Positions 185 through 7,759 of a stretch of DNA of 7,842 bases are shown here, piece after piece. Position 1 is the stretch's first letter. The number at the start of each line of letters is the position of its first letter. The notes beneath the pieces are model-generated. The model searched no databases. It saw only the letters and a program-made list of their open reading frames with translations, and had not been told where the DNA came from. The DNA is taken from assembly GCA_025774205.1 (NCBI GenBank), contig JALGWK010000195.1, positions 1-7,842 on the forward strand. The letters are read 5' to 3'. This DNA is from a bacterium. GTDB lineage: Bacteria > Blakebacterota > Blakebacteria > Blakebacterales > Blakebacteraceae. Position numbers and translations under genes: made by a program.

Positions 185-3109
185 ATGAAGATCAGATCCG
201 GTATCTCGCTGTCCTATCTCTTCACGATCGCCCTCTTCACGGCCGGTCCTGTCCCGGCCGCGGCCCAGGATCAGCCGAAGCGGCCCCTCGACCATTCCGT
301 CTACGACGACTGGAACCGCCTGCAGGGTCAGGCCATCTCCGCCGACGGGCGCTGGGTCCTCTACACCCTGGCGCCGCAGGACGGCGGCGACGTGACGCTG
401 AAGATCAAGAGCCTGATCGCAGATACCGAATACACCGTCCTCAACGGCACCTCGGCCCGGTTCGGGCCGGGCAGTCGGATGGTCGCCTGGTTGCTCGAGC
501 CGACCGAGGCGGAGATGGAGGCGGCCCGGGAAGCGGAATTCGAGCCGGCCGAGCAGCCGAAGAAGAAGCTGGTCGTCATGGACCTCCTCTACGGGACGGC
601 TCAGAAGTTCGAGATCGACCGGGTCCGGTCCTATCAGCTCCCCGCCGAATCGACTCATTACCTGGCCTACCTGATGGAAGCGCCGGTACCGGATGAGACA
701 GGCGAGGAGGCTGAAGCAGGGGCGGAGGAGGCCGAGACCGAGGCGGTGGAAACCGGGGAAGAAGCCCCGCGCAAGGAGGGACGCCCGGGCACCGAACTCA
801 TCCTGCGGAACTACCGCGACGGCACCGAGCGGAGTTTCGCCCATGTCACCAGCTACACCTTCAGCGAGGACGGGGACCTGCTGGTCTATGCCACCCGCAC
901 CCCGACCGGGGAGACCGACGGGATCTACGCCGTCGAGACCGGTTCGGACGATGTCACCACCCTGCTGACCGGCAACGGCTCCTATCAGCGGATGACCATC
1001 TCCGAGGAGGGCGACCGGGTGGCCTTCCTCTTCAACCCCGATGAGGAGCCGGTGGAGGCCGGGAGCGATGAGGATGAGGGTGAAGCACAGGAGGAGGCGG
1101 GGACCGAAGAAACCGCCGTCACCCTCTATCACTGGCAGGCCGGCGAGAGCGCCGCGGAAGCGGTCGCCATGGACGGAGCGGCCGGCATCCCCGAAGGCTG
1201 GTTAGTGAGCGAAAACGGTTCGGTCGCCTTCTCCCGCAGCGGCGAACGCCTCTTCTTCGGCACCGCTCCCCACCGCGACACCGAACCGGTGTTCGGGGAG
1301 GATTCTGAGGAGAGCGAAGTGGTACTCGACATCTGGCACTGGCAGGATACCCGACTCCAGCCGCAGCAGCTCCTCGAGGTCAATCGGGACCGGGATCGGA
1401 ATTACCGGGCGGTTATCCACCTGGAGAGCGGCCGGATCGTCCAGCTTGCCGACGAGGAGGTACCGAACGTCTCGATCAACCAGCACAGTGACGCGCCGGT
1501 CGGGCTCGCTATCACCAGCGTTCCCTATGAGAACCCGGTCTCATGGGAATACCCGAGTCTCGTCGATGTCTACCTCGTGGACATCGCCACCGGCGAACGA
1601 ACCCTGGTGATGGACGGCGACCAGCGGCAGGTGAGCATGTCCCCGGGCGGAAACTACCTGGTCTGGTGGGATTACCAGGAGCAGCAGTGGTTCTCCACCG
1701 ACCTCGAGACCATGGAGAGCCGGCACCTCTCGGCGGGGATCCCTTTCCCCCTTTACAACGAATTACACGACACCCCCATGCCGGCCGGCTCCTACGGCAG
1801 TGCCGGCTGGACCGACAATGACCGGCTCTTCCTGGTCTATGACGCCTTCGACATCTGGGCGCTCGATCCCACCGGCCGGTCGGGTGCCAGGTGCGTGACA
1901 GAGGGAATCGGCCGCAACCAGGGCCTCCAGTACCGCTACATCCGGCTCGATCCGGAGGCCGAAACGATCAATCCGCGGGAAGATATCCTGCTCAGGACCT
2001 TCCACACGCGGATCAAGGCTTCGGGTTTCTCGACCGACCGCGTGGCCGGAACGCTGGCACCACACCAGCTTCACATGGACAACTACTCCTACTCCAGTCC
2101 GGTGAAAGCCAAAGACGCGAATATCATGCTTCTCACGCGGCAGAGTTTCATCGAGTTCCCCGACCTGTGGACCACCGGTCCGCAGTTCGGCGACTGGAGG
2201 AAGGTGAGCAACGCCAATCCGCAACAGGAGGAGTACCTGTGGGGCACCGCCGAGCTGGTCCACTGGGTTTCGGTCGACGGCCGGCCGCACGACGGCATCC
2301 TCTACAAGCCTGACGACTTCGATCCCGACCGGCAGTACCCGATGATGGTGACCTTCTACGAGAAGAACTCCGACAACCTCCACCGGCACTGGATGCCGGA
2401 GCCGCACCGGTCGATCATCAACTACACCTTCTACACCAGCCGCGGCTACCTGGTCTTCATTCCCGACATTCACTACACCGACGGATACCCGGGTGAGAGC
2501 GCCATGAACTCGGTCATCCCCGGCGTGCACATGCTGATCGATGAAGGCTTCGTGGACACCGACAACATCGGGACCGCGGGGCACTCGTGGGGCGGCTACC
2601 AGATCGCCTACATGGTGACGAAGACGAACCTCTTCAAGGCCGCCGAGGCGGGCGCGCCGGTCTCCAACATGTTCAGCGCCTACGGGGGAATCCGGTGGGG
2701 GAGCGGTCTCTCCCGCTCCTTCCAGTACGAGTGGACCCAGAGCCGGATCGGCGGGACCATCTGGGAGATGCCGTTCCGCTACATCGAGAACTCACCCATC
2801 TTCTGGGCCGACAAGGTCGAGACACCGCTGCTGATCATGCATAACGACGAGGATGGCGCGGTGCCGTGGGAACAGGGGATCGAGCTCTTCGTGGCCCTGC
2901 GTCGGCTGCAGAAGCCGGTCTGGATGATCACCTACAACGAACAGCCCCACTGGCCGATTACCTGGCCGAACAAGAAGGACTGGGCGGTGCGCCTGCAGCA
3001 GTACTTCGACCACTTCCTGACGGGGGCCCCCGCTCCACTCTGGATCAGTGAGGGTGTGCCGGCCATCGACAAGGGGAGGACGCTCGGCAGGGAGATTCCG
3101 CCGAACTAA
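185..3109 (+). CDS. exported S9-family serine peptidase (prolyl oligopeptidase / DPP-IV-like)
   Basis: This is a 974-residue secreted peptidase of clan SC, family S9, which typically cleaves short peptides or removes N-terminal di- or acyl-peptides in the periplasm. Residues 1-27 form a Sec signal peptide (charged MKIR, a hydrophobic stretch, cleavage near PAAA-QD), with no lipobox cysteine. Residues from about 30 to 690 fit the beta-propeller that gates the active site. From about 690 to 955 lies the alpha/beta-hydrolase domain. The triad is visible: Ser801 in GHSWGGYQ, Asp890 in HNDEDGAVP and His922 in EQPHWP. DIWHWQDTRLQPQQ (382-395) resembles a segment I associate with the large S9 homologues of FCB bacteria. 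The protein is longer than DPP-IV-like enzymes (about 700-750 residues), partly because of three charged Glu/Ala-rich inserts near 107-128, 170-194 and 286-310. Substrate is unknown. Its stop overlaps that of the convergent carbonic-anhydrase-like gene. Confidence 0.92.
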   Translation: MKIRSGISLSYLFTIALFTAGPVPAAAQDQPKRPLDHSVYDDWNRLQGQAISADGRWVLYTLAPQDGGDVTLKIKSLIADTEYTVLNGTSARFGPGSRMVAWLLEPTEAEMEAAREAEFEPAEQPKKKLVVMDLLYGTAQKFEIDRVRSYQLPAESTHYLAYLMEAPVPDETGEEAEAGAEEAETEAVETGEEAPRKEGRPGTELILRNYRDGTERSFAHVTSYTFSEDGDLLVYATRTPTGETDGIYAVETGSDDVTTLLTGNGSYQRMTISEEGDRVAFLFNPDEEPVEAGSDEDEGEAQEEAGTEETAVTLYHWQAGESAAEAVAMDGAAGIPEGWLVSENGSVAFSRSGERLFFGTAPHRDTEPVFGEDSEESEVVLDIWHWQDTRLQPQQLLEVNRDRDRNYRAVIHLESGRIVQLADEEVPNVSINQHSDAPVGLAITSVPYENPVSWEYPSLVDVYLVDIATGERTLVMDGDQRQVSMSPGGNYLVWWDYQEQQWFSTDLETMESRHLSAGIPFPLYNELHDTPMPAGSYGSAGWTDNDRLFLVYDAFDIWALDPTGRSGARCVTEGIGRNQGLQYRYIRLDPEAETINPREDILLRTFHTRIKASGFSTDRVAGTLAPHQLHMDNYSYSSPVKAKDANIMLLTRQSFIEFPDLWTTGPQFGDWRKVSNANPQQEEYLWGTAELVHWVSVDGRPHDGILYKPDDFDPDRQYPMMVTFYEKNSDNLHRHWMPEPHRSIINYTFYTSRGYLVFIPDIHYTDGYPGESAMNSVIPGVHMLIDEGFVDTDNIGTAGHSWGGYQIAYMVTKTNLFKAAEAGAPVSNMFSAYGGIRWGSGLSRSFQYEWTQSRIGGTIWEMPFRYIENSPIFWADKVETPLLIMHNDEDGAVPWEQGIELFVALRRLQKPVWMITYNEQPHWPITWPNKKDWAVRLQQYFDHFLTGAPAPLWISEGVPAIDKGRTLGREIPPN

Positions 3110-3510: not shown

Positions 3511-4506
3511 TCAGGCCTGCAGAAAACCCCTGAGCTTCCGCGCGTAGGCCTCACTCTCTCCCGGTTTGGTCACGAACTCGATGTTCTCCTGGCGGTCGAT
3601 CCCGATCCCCAGTTCGGCTGCCCGCCTGATCTGTTCGAGGTCGAAGATGCTGCCCTGCGAGACCTCATCGGTGGTCCCCTTCTCTCTCAGGATCGCCACC
3701 CCGACGGCGTCGATGGCGACGCGGTCGGTGCTGGCCAGGATCACGTTCGGCGTGGCCCGGGTACCTTCGTGGGGTCCGCGATCGGTAAAGCACTCGATGG
3801 CGTCCATGACGATCAGCTCCGGCTGGTAGCAGAGGTTCGCCTCGGCGATCATGATCCGCTGATCAGGTGATGAGTGCAGTTCCCGCATGAAGCGGTGGTC
3901 AACCCCTGGAACATCGCCGGCTATCATGCCGATTGTGTTCTTGAGCGACAGGGTGAAATGCCCTCCGAAGCCATGGGTCTTGAGGCAGCAGGTCTGGACG
4001 ATGGCGTCGACCTCTTTGAAGATGCTTCCCAGGTAGTAGCCCTGGCTCCAGTGTAGATCGGGATGCTCCACGGCGGTCCAGCCTTCAGCCGGCAGGTCGT
4101 GGAGCGGATGGGTCTCGAAGCCGAGCTTCTCGGCCTGCTCGAAGACGCCCTTCTCCTGGTAGACCTCCCTCGTGTTCGCCATCCCGCTGCGGTCGGCTAC
4201 CACCACCCGATCGGCTCCGGCTCCCTTGATCATGCGCACCATCACATCGAGGGTGTCCGGGTGTGTGCCGCCGGGATAGGCGTGGGCGCTGTTGAAGTTC
4301 GGTTTCAGAGCGACGTATTGTCCGTTGAAGGTCGGCGCTCCGACCAGGTCCACCGCCGTGCGGATCGCTTCCTCACGACCCCCCTCCCCGACCGTGACGA
4401 GGCTCACTTTGGCTGACGCGGGGACCGGCCAGCCCAGCCGTCCGGCCGTCATCGCCACCCCCATCGCCGAGGTCTTCACGAATTCCCTCCGGTTCCACAG
4501 ACGCAT
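3511..4506 (-). CDS. Tat-signal DUF362-domain protein
   Basis: This 331-residue protein begins with NRREFVK (residues 5-11) followed by a mildly hydrophobic stretch ending near PASA (29-32). That is a twin-arginine signal, so the protein is probably exported folded, often meaning a bound cofactor. The rest matches the DUF362 family: VALKPNFN (65-72), VVVADRSGM (101-109), LKTHGFGGHFTLSLKNTIG (175-193) and the C-terminal DRVAIDAVGVAIL (261-273). The function of DUF362 is not established. Many relatives carry 4Fe-4S ferredoxin motifs; none is seen here, and the only close cysteines are Cys173-Cys174. The frame extends to a GTG at 4566, but ATG 4506 follows a strong Shine-Dalgarno and places the Tat motif at the N-terminus. 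It heads a probable two-gene unit with the carbonic-anhydrase-like gene. Confidence 0.85.
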   Translation of the reverse strand: MRLWNRREFVKTSAMGVAMTAGRLGWPVPASAKVSLVTVGEGGREEAIRTAVDLVGAPTFNGQYVALKPNFNSAHAYPGGTHPDTLDVMVRMIKGAGADRVVVADRSGMANTREVYQEKGVFEQAEKLGFETHPLHDLPAEGWTAVEHPDLHWSQGYYLGSIFKEVDAIVQTCCLKTHGFGGHFTLSLKNTIGMIAGDVPGVDHRFMRELHSSPDQRIMIAEANLCYQPELIVMDAIECFTDRGPHEGTRATPNVILASTDRVAIDAVGVAILREKGTTDEVSQGSIFDLEQIRRAAELGIGIDRQENIEFVTKPGESEAYARKLRGFLQA

Positions 4507-4524
4507 GACTGCCTCCTCCTCCTC
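4507..4524 (-). promoter_or_regulatory. strong ribosome binding site of the DUF362 gene
   Basis: Read on the minus strand, four GAG/GGAG repeats (GAGGAGGAGGAGG, 4524-4512) lie five bases before the ATG at 4506. This supports that start over the GTG 60 bp upstream, where the repeat would have to be translated as a run of four glutamates. Confidence 0.75.
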
Positions 4525-4635
4525 ACGGCGCGCTCCCGACGCCTCGATTGCCACCCGACCAGCCACCAGGACCGTTCATCACGATCACCACGAACAGGGT
4601 AGCACCTGAGCCCGACTCCGGAAAGCGGTTGGCAG

Positions 4636-4643
4636 AGTATATT
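4636..4643. promoter_or_regulatory. AT-rich box, possible shared -10 of two divergent genes
   Basis: The region between the divergent DUF362 and cupin genes (4507-4685) is GC-rich except here. On the plus strand TATATT (4638-4643) and on the minus strand TATACT (4641-4636) each match TATAAT in five of six positions and overlap. The plus-strand box would give a leader of about 35 bases before the cupin. Neither direction has a good -35 hexamer, so the assignment is tentative. Nothing else stands out in the region. Confidence 0.3.
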
Positions 4644-4685
4644 CATTAGTCAGCGATTCACCCCAGCCATGAGGATGATCTGACC

Positions 4686-5015
4686 ATGGACGACTTCCCT
4701 CCCTTCATCGCCGGCCTGCCCGACATCGATGTCCCCTTCGATGGTGTGACCGGATACCTCCTGCAGGGTGAGAATCAGCAGGTAGCATTCCTTCGCTTCG
4801 CCGATGATACCGATGTGCCGGAACACCAGCACAAAGGCCAGTGGGAACACGTGCTGGCTGGAGAAGTAACGCTCAACGCGTGGGGCCGGGAACAGACCTA
4901 CACTGCAGGTGAATCGTTCTACCTGGAGGAGGGGGAGCCCCACAGCGCGGTCGTGAAGGCCGGCTACAGGGCGATCATCTTCTTCGACCAGACCGACCGT
5001 TATACAACGAAGTAG
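4686..5015 (+). CDS. small single-domain cupin protein
   Basis: This 109-residue protein is essentially one cupin barrel. Motif 1 is PEHQHKGQWEHVLAGEV, giving metal ligands His47, His49 and Glu54. Motif 2 is GESFYLEEGEPHSA, giving His86. All four usual ligands are present, so it should bind a divalent metal. Such minimal cupins include isomerases, dioxygenases, sugar-binding and regulatory proteins, and the sequence does not decide among them. It has no signal peptide and no fused DNA-binding domain. The ribosome binding site is ordinary to weak (GAGG, 11 bases before the ATG). It stands alone on its strand, diverging from DUF362 and converging on the ROK gene, whose stop codon starts three bases past its own. 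A role beside the sugar genes is possible but unproven. Confidence 0.85.
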   Translation: MDDFPPFIAGLPDIDVPFDGVTGYLLQGENQQVAFLRFADDTDVPEHQHKGQWEHVLAGEVTLNAWGREQTYTAGESFYLEEGEPHSAVVKAGYRAIIFFDQTDRYTTK

Positions 5016-5018
5016 TTT

Positions 5019-6137
5019 TTACACCCGATCAAGTTCGGCCAGCGCGAAGGCGTAAGCGCCGACCGCGGTCGCCCGGCTGGTGCCGAGCTTCGTGATGCCC
5101 ACTCCGACCCGTTTCAGGGGATCCCAGGGCACGGTCCGGTCGCTTCCCGGGACGGCAAGTTCCTTCGCCTCAGCATGGCAGAAGGCGAGCCGCTCCCCAT
5201 CGTCCTCGACATTGAACGCCTGCAGTTCCATCCGGGGAATCTCATCCCCTTCGGGAGAAACGAAGCCGGTGTTCATCTCCTCCACCACCGCCGGAAGGAA
5301 GAGCTCGTGGGCGCCAGCCACCCCGCCGCCGATCACGATCGGCGCGTCGATCAGGGTGACGGCGTTGGCCAGGGCGTCACCCAGCGCCCGGCCGAACTCC
5401 AGCCAGGCGTTTCGGGCAGCTTCTTCCGCTCCCTCCACCTCGCTCATCCCGATTCTATATATCTCCTTCGGGCTGGGAGCAGCGTCGGGATCGAGTCCTG
5501 TCGCGGCCGCGTAGGAACGCTGCACCCCCCGGATACTCACCGATTCCTCCGCGGTGGTGGTGGGCATCACCCGGTTCCGCAGGCACCATATCTCACCCCC
5601 AGCCGAGTTGTCACCGATGTGGAGCCGGCCGTCGGTTACGATGCCGCCGCCGAACCCGGTCCCGAGAGTGACACCGAGCAGGTTCCGGAAACGTTTCGGG
5701 CTGTTGGCATCTTCCATCAGGCGGTTCAGCCAGGGCAGGTAACCGCCGATCGCCTCGCCGAAGGTGAAGAGGTCGCCGTCGTTGTTGATGAAGACCGGCA
5801 GGTCGAAGCGGTCTTCGAGGATCGCCCCGAGCGGCACTCCGCCCCGGTAGGCGGGCAGATTTCCAAGGTCGCCGATCACCCCCCGCTCGTAGTCGGCTGG
5901 CCCGGGGAAGGCGAAGCTGATGGCGACCGGTCGCTCATCGAGTGATTCCCCGAGGAGAACCACCACCTGTGAGAATCCCTCAAGGATGTTCGTGAGACTC
6001 TGATCCAGATCATCTCCCGCTGACGGGAGCGTGACCGGATCGACCACTTCCTTCCCCCCGCGGATCGCGCCGAAGACGAAGTTCGTCCCTCCCGCGTCGA
6101 GGGTCATCACCGCCCGGCTGTCCTCATACAGTTTCAT
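5019..6137 (-). CDS. ROK-family protein, probable sugar kinase, lacking the zinc motif
   Basis: This 372-residue ASKHA-fold protein probably phosphorylates a sugar delivered by the adjacent permease. Visible are the phosphate-1 loop LDAGGTN (13-19), NNDGDLFTFGE (118-128) with the likely catalytic Asp120, the phosphate-2 loop LGTGFGGGIV (158-167), and the adenosine-region IVIGGGVAGA (267-276). Where ROK kinases usually have GH followed by a cysteine-rich zinc knuckle, this protein reads NSAGGEIWCLRNR, with a single cysteine. It is also longer than the typical ROK kinase of about 300 residues, with roughly 50 extra residues at the C-terminus. There is no helix-turn-helix, so it is not a NagC/XylR-type repressor. 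ATG 6137 is chosen over GTG 6155 because AGAAAGG lies six bases upstream. It overlaps the permease gene by 14 bp. The family call is firm; the substrate is unknown. Confidence 0.85.
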   Translation of the reverse strand: MKLYEDSRAVMTLDAGGTNFVFGAIRGGKEVVDPVTLPSAGDDLDQSLTNILEGFSQVVVLLGESLDERPVAISFAFPGPADYERGVIGDLGNLPAYRGGVPLGAILEDRFDLPVFINNDGDLFTFGEAIGGYLPWLNRLMEDANSPKRFRNLLGVTLGTGFGGGIVTDGRLHIGDNSAGGEIWCLRNRVMPTTTAEESVSIRGVQRSYAAATGLDPDAAPSPKEIYRIGMSEVEGAEEAARNAWLEFGRALGDALANAVTLIDAPIVIGGGVAGAHELFLPAVVEEMNTGFVSPEGDEIPRMELQAFNVEDDGERLAFCHAEAKELAVPGSDRTVPWDPLKRVGVGITKLGTSRATAVGAYAFALAELDRV

Positions 6138-7287
6138 CGGCGACCTTTCTGCCACCGGTGTAGACAGCGAGGAAGGTGATGTAGACGAAGATCGCCAGCG
6201 GCACTACGAAGCTGAGCGTGATCGAGGCATTGGCGATCAGTCCCATGATCGGCGGGATGAGCGCCCCCCCGACGATGGCCATCACCATGAGGCCGGAAAG
6301 TTCGTCGGAGCGCTCCGGCTTTGAGTCGATGAGGATCGAGAAGATGAGCGGGAAGATGTTCCCGAAGGCCAGCCCGGCGATGAAGATCGAGATCAGGACC
6401 AGCGTCTGCGAGCCGGTGAACATCCCCAGGATGCCGACCACCCCGAGGATCGAGGTATAAAGGAAGAACTTTTGCGGGGTAAGGAAGTTGAGCACGATCG
6501 AGCCCATGAGACGGCCGATGGCGAGCGCGGTCAGAAAAAAGCCTATCCCGAGGGTCGCCATCGATTTGAGGTCGAATCCGAACCGGTCGGTCAGGAAGGT
6601 GGCGATCCAGGAGTTGAGCCCCACCTCGGCGCCGACGTAGAAGAAGATCCCCAGCACCATCATCAGGACGAACGGCTCCTTCAGCAGCGCAAAACTGGAA
6701 CGGATGCTCACCGTATTGTCCGGCTCCTCCTGTTCGGTCTCCTCGATCTTCATGGTGAACACGATCAGGAGGGTGATCCCGGCCACGATGGCGTAGATCG
6801 TGAAGATCCCGGTCCATTTCGCCAGCCCGATGGCAACCACCAGCGGCACCAGGTAGGGAGCGGTGTTGGATCCGATGCTCTTGATGAACTGCGCGAAGGT
6901 GAGGTTGCGCGAGAACATCCCCGACGGAGAAACATCGCGCATGATCGGATTGCCTGCCACCTGGAGGGCCGTCATCCCGACCCCGATCAGGAAGATCGCC
7001 CCCAGGACGTAGGCGTAGCTGGCAACGGAGATGACCGGTATCAGTTCCCCGATGGTCACCAGGATCAGCGCGAAGATGAGGACGTACTTCTTCCCCTTCC
7101 GCCCGCCCATGATCCCGAAGGGCACCGAGAATATCCCGAAGGCGAGGAAGCCGAAGAAGGGGAGCAGGCCGGCCATGAAGGGCGAGATGCTGAATTCCTC
7201 CTGCACGAACCCGACCAGGGTCCCCACGGCGTCGCCGAACCCCATGATGAAGAAGACGATGAATATCGGAAAGGTCTTCATGCGCAC
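6124..7287 (-). CDS. MFS sugar permease, FucP/GlcP-like
   Basis: This 387-residue inner-membrane protein of the major facilitator superfamily has about 12 hydrophobic segments. A short charged central loop (about 180-196, KIEETEQEEPD) divides the two halves. It probably imports a monosaccharide by proton or sodium symport. Features typical of the FucP/GlcP branch are FFIMGFGDAVG in helix 1, the loop GGRKGKKY (61-68), and the segment QVAGNPIMRD (109-118) followed by SRNLTFAQFIKSIGS (126-140). The length is at the short end for the family (about 400-440), but both ends look intact. The GTG at 7287 is chosen because AGGGGAG lies eight bases before it; the ATG six bases later is too far from that site. 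The gene overlaps the downstream ROK kinase by 14 bp. Substrate cannot be read from the sequence. Confidence 0.9.
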   Translation of the reverse strand: MRMKTFPIFIVFFIMGFGDAVGTLVGFVQEEFSISPFMAGLLPFFGFLAFGIFSVPFGIMGGRKGKKYVLIFALILVTIGELIPVISVASYAYVLGAIFLIGVGMTALQVAGNPIMRDVSPSGMFSRNLTFAQFIKSIGSNTAPYLVPLVVAIGLAKWTGIFTIYAIVAGITLLIVFTMKIEETEQEEPDNTVSIRSSFALLKEPFVLMMVLGIFFYVGAEVGLNSWIATFLTDRFGFDLKSMATLGIGFFLTALAIGRLMGSIVLNFLTPQKFFLYTSILGVVGILGMFTGSQTLVLISIFIAGLAFGNIFPLIFSILIDSKPERSDELSGLMVMAIVGGALIPPIMGLIANASITLSFVVPLAIFVYITFLAVYTGGRKVADETV

Positions 7288-7299
7288 GATGAGCGCTCC

Positions 7300-7341: not shown

Positions 7342-7358
7342 GTACCGGTTTACCAGGT

Positions 7359-7387
7359 ATTATCTGAACCGCCCGCCTTCGTCTGAA
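7359..7387 (-). promoter_or_regulatory. candidate sigma-70-type promoter for the permease-ROK pair
   Basis: Read on the minus strand, TTCAGA (7387-7382, four of six to TTGACA) and GATAAT (7364-7359, five of six to TATAAT) are separated by exactly 17 bp. Transcription would start near 7352, leaving a leader of about 65 bases before the GTG. The promoter overlaps the 3' end of the broken small membrane gene. If real, it lets the sugar genes be expressed despite the lesions upstream. Confidence 0.45.
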
Positions 7388-7487
7388 ACGCGGAACCGGT
7401 CTTCACTATCCGGACGGTGCTCTGGATCATGACCCCGAAGGCACAGATGCCCCCGACCCAGAATCCGACAGCCTTACTCGCGTGGAA

Positions 7488-7521
7488 GGGCCAGACTACG
7501 CACACGACGTAGATAAGGCCC
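7488..7521. repeat. two-stem hairpin just downstream of the in-frame TGA
   Basis: On the plus strand GGGCC (7488-7492) pairs with GGCCC (7517-7521), and CTACG (7496-7500) pairs with CGTAG (7508-7512). The internal loop is AGA opposite ATAA, and a seven-base apical loop closes the structure. In the minus-strand transcript it begins three bases (GGG, less one) after the TGA of the broken membrane gene. No U-run follows it in either direction, so it is not an intrinsic terminator. Confidence 0.5.
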
Positions 7522-7564
7522 CCTCATATGGCCATGATGAACAGCGTGCCGACGATGTTCAGAA

Positions 7565-7584
7565 CCATCTTCATCCATCTTCAT
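7565..7584. repeat. perfect 10-bp tandem duplication over a start codon
   Basis: CCATCTTCAT occurs twice without a gap (7565-7574 and 7575-7584). On the minus strand each copy reads ATGAAGATGG. Removing one copy restores AGGAGG, six bases, then the ATG in frame with the membrane-protein reading frame. The copy number therefore decides the frame of translation initiation. Confidence 0.85.
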
Positions 7585-7610
7585 GATGAGCCTCCTGTGG
7601 TGTGGGGGAC

Positions 7611-7640
7611 ACTATAACGGGACAGGAGGACGGCAGGTAA
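7611..7640 (-). promoter_or_regulatory. candidate promoter for the broken small membrane gene
   Basis: Read on the minus strand, TATAGT (7616-7611) matches TATAAT in five of six positions. TTACCT (7640-7635) lies 18 bp upstream and matches TTGACA in only three. A start near 7604 would put the Shine-Dalgarno close to the 5' end of the transcript. Confidence 0.35.
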
Positions 7641-7664
7641 GAGGATATTCGAAGGAGTTTCTGT

Positions 7665-7693
7665 TTTGCATGGCTCCGACTGAACAGTACATT
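7665..7693 (+). promoter_or_regulatory. candidate promoter for the secreted-protein gene at the right edge
   Basis: TTTGCA (7665-7670) and TACATT (7688-7693) are separated by 17 bp and each match the sigma-70 consensus in four of six positions. Transcription would start near 7700, leaving a leader of about 60 bases. It is divergent from the membrane-gene promoter at 7611-7640. Confidence 0.35.
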
Positions 7694-7699
7694 CGAGCG

Positions 7700-7710
7700 C
7701 GGTTAAACCG
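7700..7710. repeat. 11-bp palindrome at the predicted start of the right-edge transcript
   Basis: CGGTT-A-AACCG is perfectly symmetric around one base. It sits just after the candidate -10 box at 7688-7693, where a bound repressor would block transcription. Its reverse reading, CGGTTTAACCG, resembles CGGTTTACC at 7346-7354 in the permease leader. Confidence 0.35.
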
Positions 7711-7759
7711 AACCAGCAGCCGGCATGAATCTCTTTCAGTCTGCGAGGAAGAGTATCCG

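Follow-up and report, generated by a model that had tools for sequence, protein, structure and literature searches.

A candidate small membrane selenoprotein encoded by a gene with an in-frame TGA upstream of a FucP/GluP-like sugar permease

Background

A 2026 catalogue of prokaryotic selenoproteins comprises 119 families and subfamilies (PMC13188914). Membrane proteins are represented in it by the MerT-like mercuric transport protein, YeeE/YedE, the SO_0444 Cu/Zn efflux protein and SaoP (PMC13188914). The bSECIS model given in the same work requires an apical loop of 3-9 nt, an upper stem of 4-16 bp, a G within the first two nucleotides of the loop, a distance of 16-37 nt from the UGA and a minimum free energy of -7.5 kcal/mol or lower (PMC13188914). 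In selenoproteins of the E. coli formate dehydrogenase (fdhF) type, the SECIS lies within the coding sequence.

The window analysed here (the whole stretch of DNA, 7,842 nucleotides) carries on its minus strand a small gene that resembles the fdhF type in having an in-frame UGA with a hairpin directly downstream, an apical loop that begins 17-18 nt after the UGA, a G at the start of this loop, and SelB and tRNA-Sec in the same genome. Unlike the fdhF-type selenoproteins, its product is neither a thioredoxin-fold protein nor a metalloenzyme, but a tiny two-helix protein with the putative selenocysteine (Sec) inside a membrane helix; it also lacks a UxxC or CxxU motif, the nearest cysteine following Sec by 8 residues. 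The MerT-like, YeeE/YedE, SO_0444 and SaoP proteins likewise have Sec in membrane proteins, but the product described here is much smaller, has other motifs and has no Pfam or NCBIfam sequence match. Judged by the family descriptions, Table 1 of the catalogue contains no recognizable small two-helix family (PMC13188914). A further comparison is with MetS/MaAIMP (PF16951), the small subunit of NSS transporters, which is also a small hydrophobic protein encoded beside a transporter gene. In contrast to that family, the small protein scores below the gathering score (13.1 bits with tryptophan assumed at the TGA, against 26.2), has no match with cysteine at this position, and shows no conserved linkage to a transporter. 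The small gene most likely represents a new, undescribed family of small, membrane-embedded selenoproteins.

Reading frame and start region

The earlier note on this DNA described a minus-strand frame of about 74 residues with TGA at codon 17, and this was confirmed. The frame has 74 codons (7353..7574) and ends at a TAA (7352-7350), with the in-frame TGA at 7526-7524; from 7574 to 7350 it reads MKMVLNIVGTLFIMAI[TGA]GGLIYVVCVVWPFHASKAVGFWVGGICAFGVMIQSTVRIVKTGSAFQTKAGGSDNTW-TAA. By every measure tried, this frame is coding. Its codon log-odds score is +14.7, compared with a shuffle mean of -11.5 (sd 5.5; best of six frames), and none of 2000 shuffles reached this value. G+C at third codon positions is 0.78 (0.75-0.88 in the neighbouring genes), and only 1 of 2000 shuffles had a membrane-helix hydrophobicity peak as high as that of the frame. 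A frame containing no more than one stop was present in 1514 of the 2000 shuffles, so this property is not unusual by itself.

The tandem duplication that the earlier note had proposed to put the frame out of phase with its Shine-Dalgarno sequence is also real. It is a perfect 10-bp duplication (7565..7584, minus strand) in which ATGAAGATGG occurs twice. A Shine-Dalgarno sequence, AGGAGG, was read by eye at 7596-7591. The ATG at 7584 lies 6 nt from it and is out of phase with the 74-codon frame, while the in-phase ATG (7574-7572), carried by the second copy of the repeat, lies 10 nt beyond the first ATG and 16 nt from AGGAGG and begins the same protein. Because of the duplication, the in-frame start stands at a distance from the Shine-Dalgarno sequence that is 10 nt greater, which makes expression of the window copy uncertain; a start displaced in this way may weaken or silence the gene. 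A possible promoter, TTACCT-18-TATAGT (7611..7640, minus strand), is retained in a sister species and scores below the promoter-scan threshold.

Other repeats were observed in the window. The start regions of the small gene (7582-7591) and of the downstream permease gene (7285-7294) share a 10-bp near-repeat (GCTCATCATG and GCTCATCGTG, respectively), and recombination between the two copies would delete the small gene, much as is seen in the sister species. In the S9-family peptidase, the N-terminal half contains a short, acidic repeat in tandem with a period of 21 (window 700-750).

Homologues and the shared TGA

The read-through protein and a two-member profile served as queries against approximately 1,100 genomes. 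Two clear homologues were found, each in a different phylum from the window: one in a KSB1-phylum genome (E-value: 8.8e-9) and one in a genome from the phylum of a Neomarinimicrobiota MAG (E-value: 1e-10). The family thus has three members, with products of approximately 60-74 residues. All pairings of the three score 12-17 sd above shuffles, including shuffles that keep the hydrophobic pattern. Further weak matches from the genome search, examined in part, were judged to be due to chance: they lie inside or antisense to other genes, are short fragments, include a KdpF-like piece, or have a TGA at a non-homologous place. As stops are common within such noise matches, the evidence was confined to position and score. 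A short frame similar to ALWGGLIYAA.KVWTFCFGYPD.FW is present in three genomes from one phylum (twice in one of them); it probably belongs to another repeated sequence or runs antisense to it, and is unrelated to the small gene.

Each of the three members contains exactly one in-frame stop, and in each case it is a TGA situated 11 codons before the tryptophan (W28) of an invariant W-P-F motif, with a constant 10 codons between them. The search profile contained cysteine rather than a stop at this position, so the shared TGA did not contribute to the hits. The Neomarinimicrobiota-phylum homologue has an ATG with a Shine-Dalgarno sequence at the normal spacing, and from this ATG the TGA is codon 17. 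When the window and KSB1 proteins are aligned with gaps, the top alignment places their TGA codons out of register with each other, and their common register rests on ungapped alignments of each with the Neomarinimicrobiota-phylum member. No homologue with cysteine at position 17 was found among the approximately 1,100 genomes.

In the KSB1 copy, the ATG best placed with respect to a Shine-Dalgarno sequence is one base out of phase with the reading frame, the offset lying at an A7 run, and there is an in-frame ATG 25 nt upstream. Neither SelB nor tRNA-Sec was detected above cut-off in the KSB1 genome. This copy may be a remnant left after loss of the Sec system or a dying copy, or the MAG may be incomplete.

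No DNA copies of the small gene were found elsewhere in the window's genome or its family, and nothing was found in searches of viral contigs, plasmids, phages and solved structures, or with Rfam at the locus. No Pfam or NCBIfam family matched two of the members, no NCBIfam family matched the third, and the window protein had no match in PHROGs.

SECIS-like hairpins and selenocysteine machinery

Immediately after the UGA of the window member, a hairpin (7486..7523, minus strand) is predicted with a folding energy of -19.0 kcal/mol (z = -3.1). Its lower stem pairs 7523-7517 with 7492-7486, its upper stem pairs 7512-7507 with 7501-7496, and its apical loop is CGUGU (7506-7502). The hairpin agrees with the bSECIS model (PMC13188914), as do those that follow the UGA in the other two members. 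In the three hairpins the apical loop (CGUGU, CGUGU and GGU) begins 17 or 18 nt after the UGA, the stem has 6-8 bp and the folding energy is between -13 and -20 kcal/mol. By chance, 6-16% of codon starts satisfy the general bSECIS model, while a hairpin of the strict form was found at approximately 1% of codon starts in neighbouring genes (24/2252, 19/1852 and 20/1674).

Within the gene, conservation is highest in the DNA beneath the hairpin: nucleotide identity among the members is 0.64-0.74 over codons 18-31, compared with 0.39-0.48 elsewhere. Val26 is encoded by GTA in all three, though this codon accounts for only 9 of the 181 valine codons in the genes of the window. Covariation in the hairpin is weak, with one two-sided change that does not exceed shuffles, three sequences being too sparse for this measure to count.

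The genome from which the window derives encodes SelB (342.8 bits, cut-off 242) and a canonical tRNA-Sec with a UCA anticodon (65.9 bits, cut-off 47). The sister species also has the Sec machinery, and it lacks the small gene. A changed genetic code in which TGA specifies tryptophan was ruled out because, in all three contigs, TGA is an ordinary stop that ends genes and TGG serves for tryptophan.

Genomic context

The next gene downstream of the small gene encodes a FucP/GluP-like MFS sugar permease (6124..7287, minus strand). The small gene is located 62 bp upstream of it and is probably part of the same transcript; the relationship is one of neighbours only. In the sister species the same divergent layout is found, with a VTT-domain gene in one direction and the permease gene (86% identity) in the other; the intervening leader is conserved, yet the entire segment with the small gene is missing. 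None of the other genomes of the phylum (four in the collection) has the small gene. The KSB1 homologue adjoins genes for a sulfatase and for apparent secreted or outer-membrane proteins, and the Neomarinimicrobiota-phylum homologue adjoins a diaminopentanoate dehydrogenase-like gene and a DUF498 gene. Because the homologues adjoin such unrelated genes, there is no conserved partner; the small gene is not conserved together with the sugar permease, nor is it specific to it.

Two features of the sister-species operon were observed alongside this comparison. The leader (window 7600-7742, sister-species locus 2850-2975) is strongly conserved, with runs such as CAGAAACTCCTTCGAATATCC, which suggests a shared promoter or operator. 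In addition, the sister-species ROK sugar-kinase gene (locus 4142-5375) is split into two frames near 5089-5106 and contains an in-frame tandem duplication (GRLHIGDNSAGGEIWCL twice); the orthologous operon therefore shows a duplication and frameshift of its own.

Alternative explanations

The earlier note had recognized an unannotated two-helix membrane-protein gene at this site, which holds, and had considered it to be recently broken, which most likely does not. If the gene were a recently broken pseudogene, the TGA would have arisen by nonsense mutation, with the duplication acting as a frameshift. The out-of-frame ATG next to the Shine-Dalgarno sequence would fit this account, as would the sister species without the gene, but the TGA is not private to the window copy, SECIS-like hairpins follow it in every member, and the frame has no other stop and intact codon usage. 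We therefore consider a pseudogene of this kind to be very unlikely and read the TGA as most likely selenocysteine rather than as a recent loss, because the same codon occurs in two other phyla and a SECIS-like hairpin is found in all three members. A different possibility, which is compatible with this reading, is that the family is a real selenoprotein family whose window and KSB1 copies have been newly inactivated at the start, by the 10-bp duplication and by a one-base slip in the A7 run, respectively. The best-placed start is out of frame in two of the three members and normal in the third, and the KSB1 genome has no detectable SelB or tRNA-Sec. Against this, the second repeat copy in the window supplies an in-frame version of the same start (at 16 nt from the Shine-Dalgarno sequence), the KSB1 frame has its upstream in-frame ATG, and the coding region shows no other decay. 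Inactivation of this kind is a serious possibility, to which we give somewhat less than an even chance.

The UGA might instead be recoded in another way, as tryptophan or through near-cognate read-through, or might end a 16-residue leader as a regulatory stop. The lack of a cysteine homologue and the KSB1 genome without detected Sec machinery would be consistent with this; however, the hairpin stands at SECIS distance with a G among the first two loop positions, SelB and tRNA-Sec are present in the window's genome, and TGG is used normally for tryptophan, so that the chance of such a mechanism is slight. The earlier note also proposed that the product is a small subunit or accessory protein of the FucP-like permease, a role comparable to that of MetS beside NSS transporters. 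Apart from its position and probable cotranscription, this is favoured by weak, sub-threshold MaAIMP/MetS matches (E-values: 0.08 and 0.42), which were obtained only with tryptophan in place of the TGA and were lost with cysteine. Homologues do exist, as the note had envisaged, but searching upstream of the other FucP-like permeases collected gave no related small membrane frame. As the gene is missing from the sister operon, which does contain the orthologous permease and leader, and as both homologues lie beside unrelated genes, a permease subunit is the most improbable of the readings weighed here.

Proposed mechanism and significance

Based on the shared codon, the hairpins and the Sec machinery, we infer that the small gene probably encodes an inner-membrane selenoprotein in which the UGA at codon 17 is read as selenocysteine. 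Translation would start at the ATG at 7574, or at the Shine-Dalgarno-proximal ATG in a duplication-free form of the gene, and the ribosome would then reach the UGA at codon 17. The hairpin just downstream would recruit SelB with Sec-tRNA-Sec, selenocysteine would be inserted, and the frame would continue through the second helix. A single-sequence AlphaFold prediction has two helices (residues 2-30 and 34-67) at modest confidence (pLDDT 70.7). The product should accordingly form a helical hairpin; Sec17 and Cys25 are predicted to lie in helix 1, which is followed by the invariant WPF turn. Such a membrane-embedded selenol could take part in thiol, quinone or peroxide redox chemistry, or in metal binding.

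It is also conceivable, but improbable, that start slippage switches expression of the gene on and off. The 10-bp tandem repeat in one member and the A7 run in another, each with the Shine-Dalgarno-proximal ATG out of frame while the third member is in frame, are the basis for this suggestion, which if true would amount to phase variation of a selenoprotein with its Sec buried in a membrane helix.

When a short gene contains an internal TGA, gene callers easily fail to find it, and small selenoproteins may consequently escape notice systematically. The locus also serves as a warning: if a genome encodes SelB, a gene with what seems to be a nonsense mutation should be compared with its homologues and examined for a SECIS before it is declared broken. 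Selenocysteine within a helix of a two-helix membrane protein would widen the roles of selenium beyond the thioredoxin-like and metalloenzyme folds.
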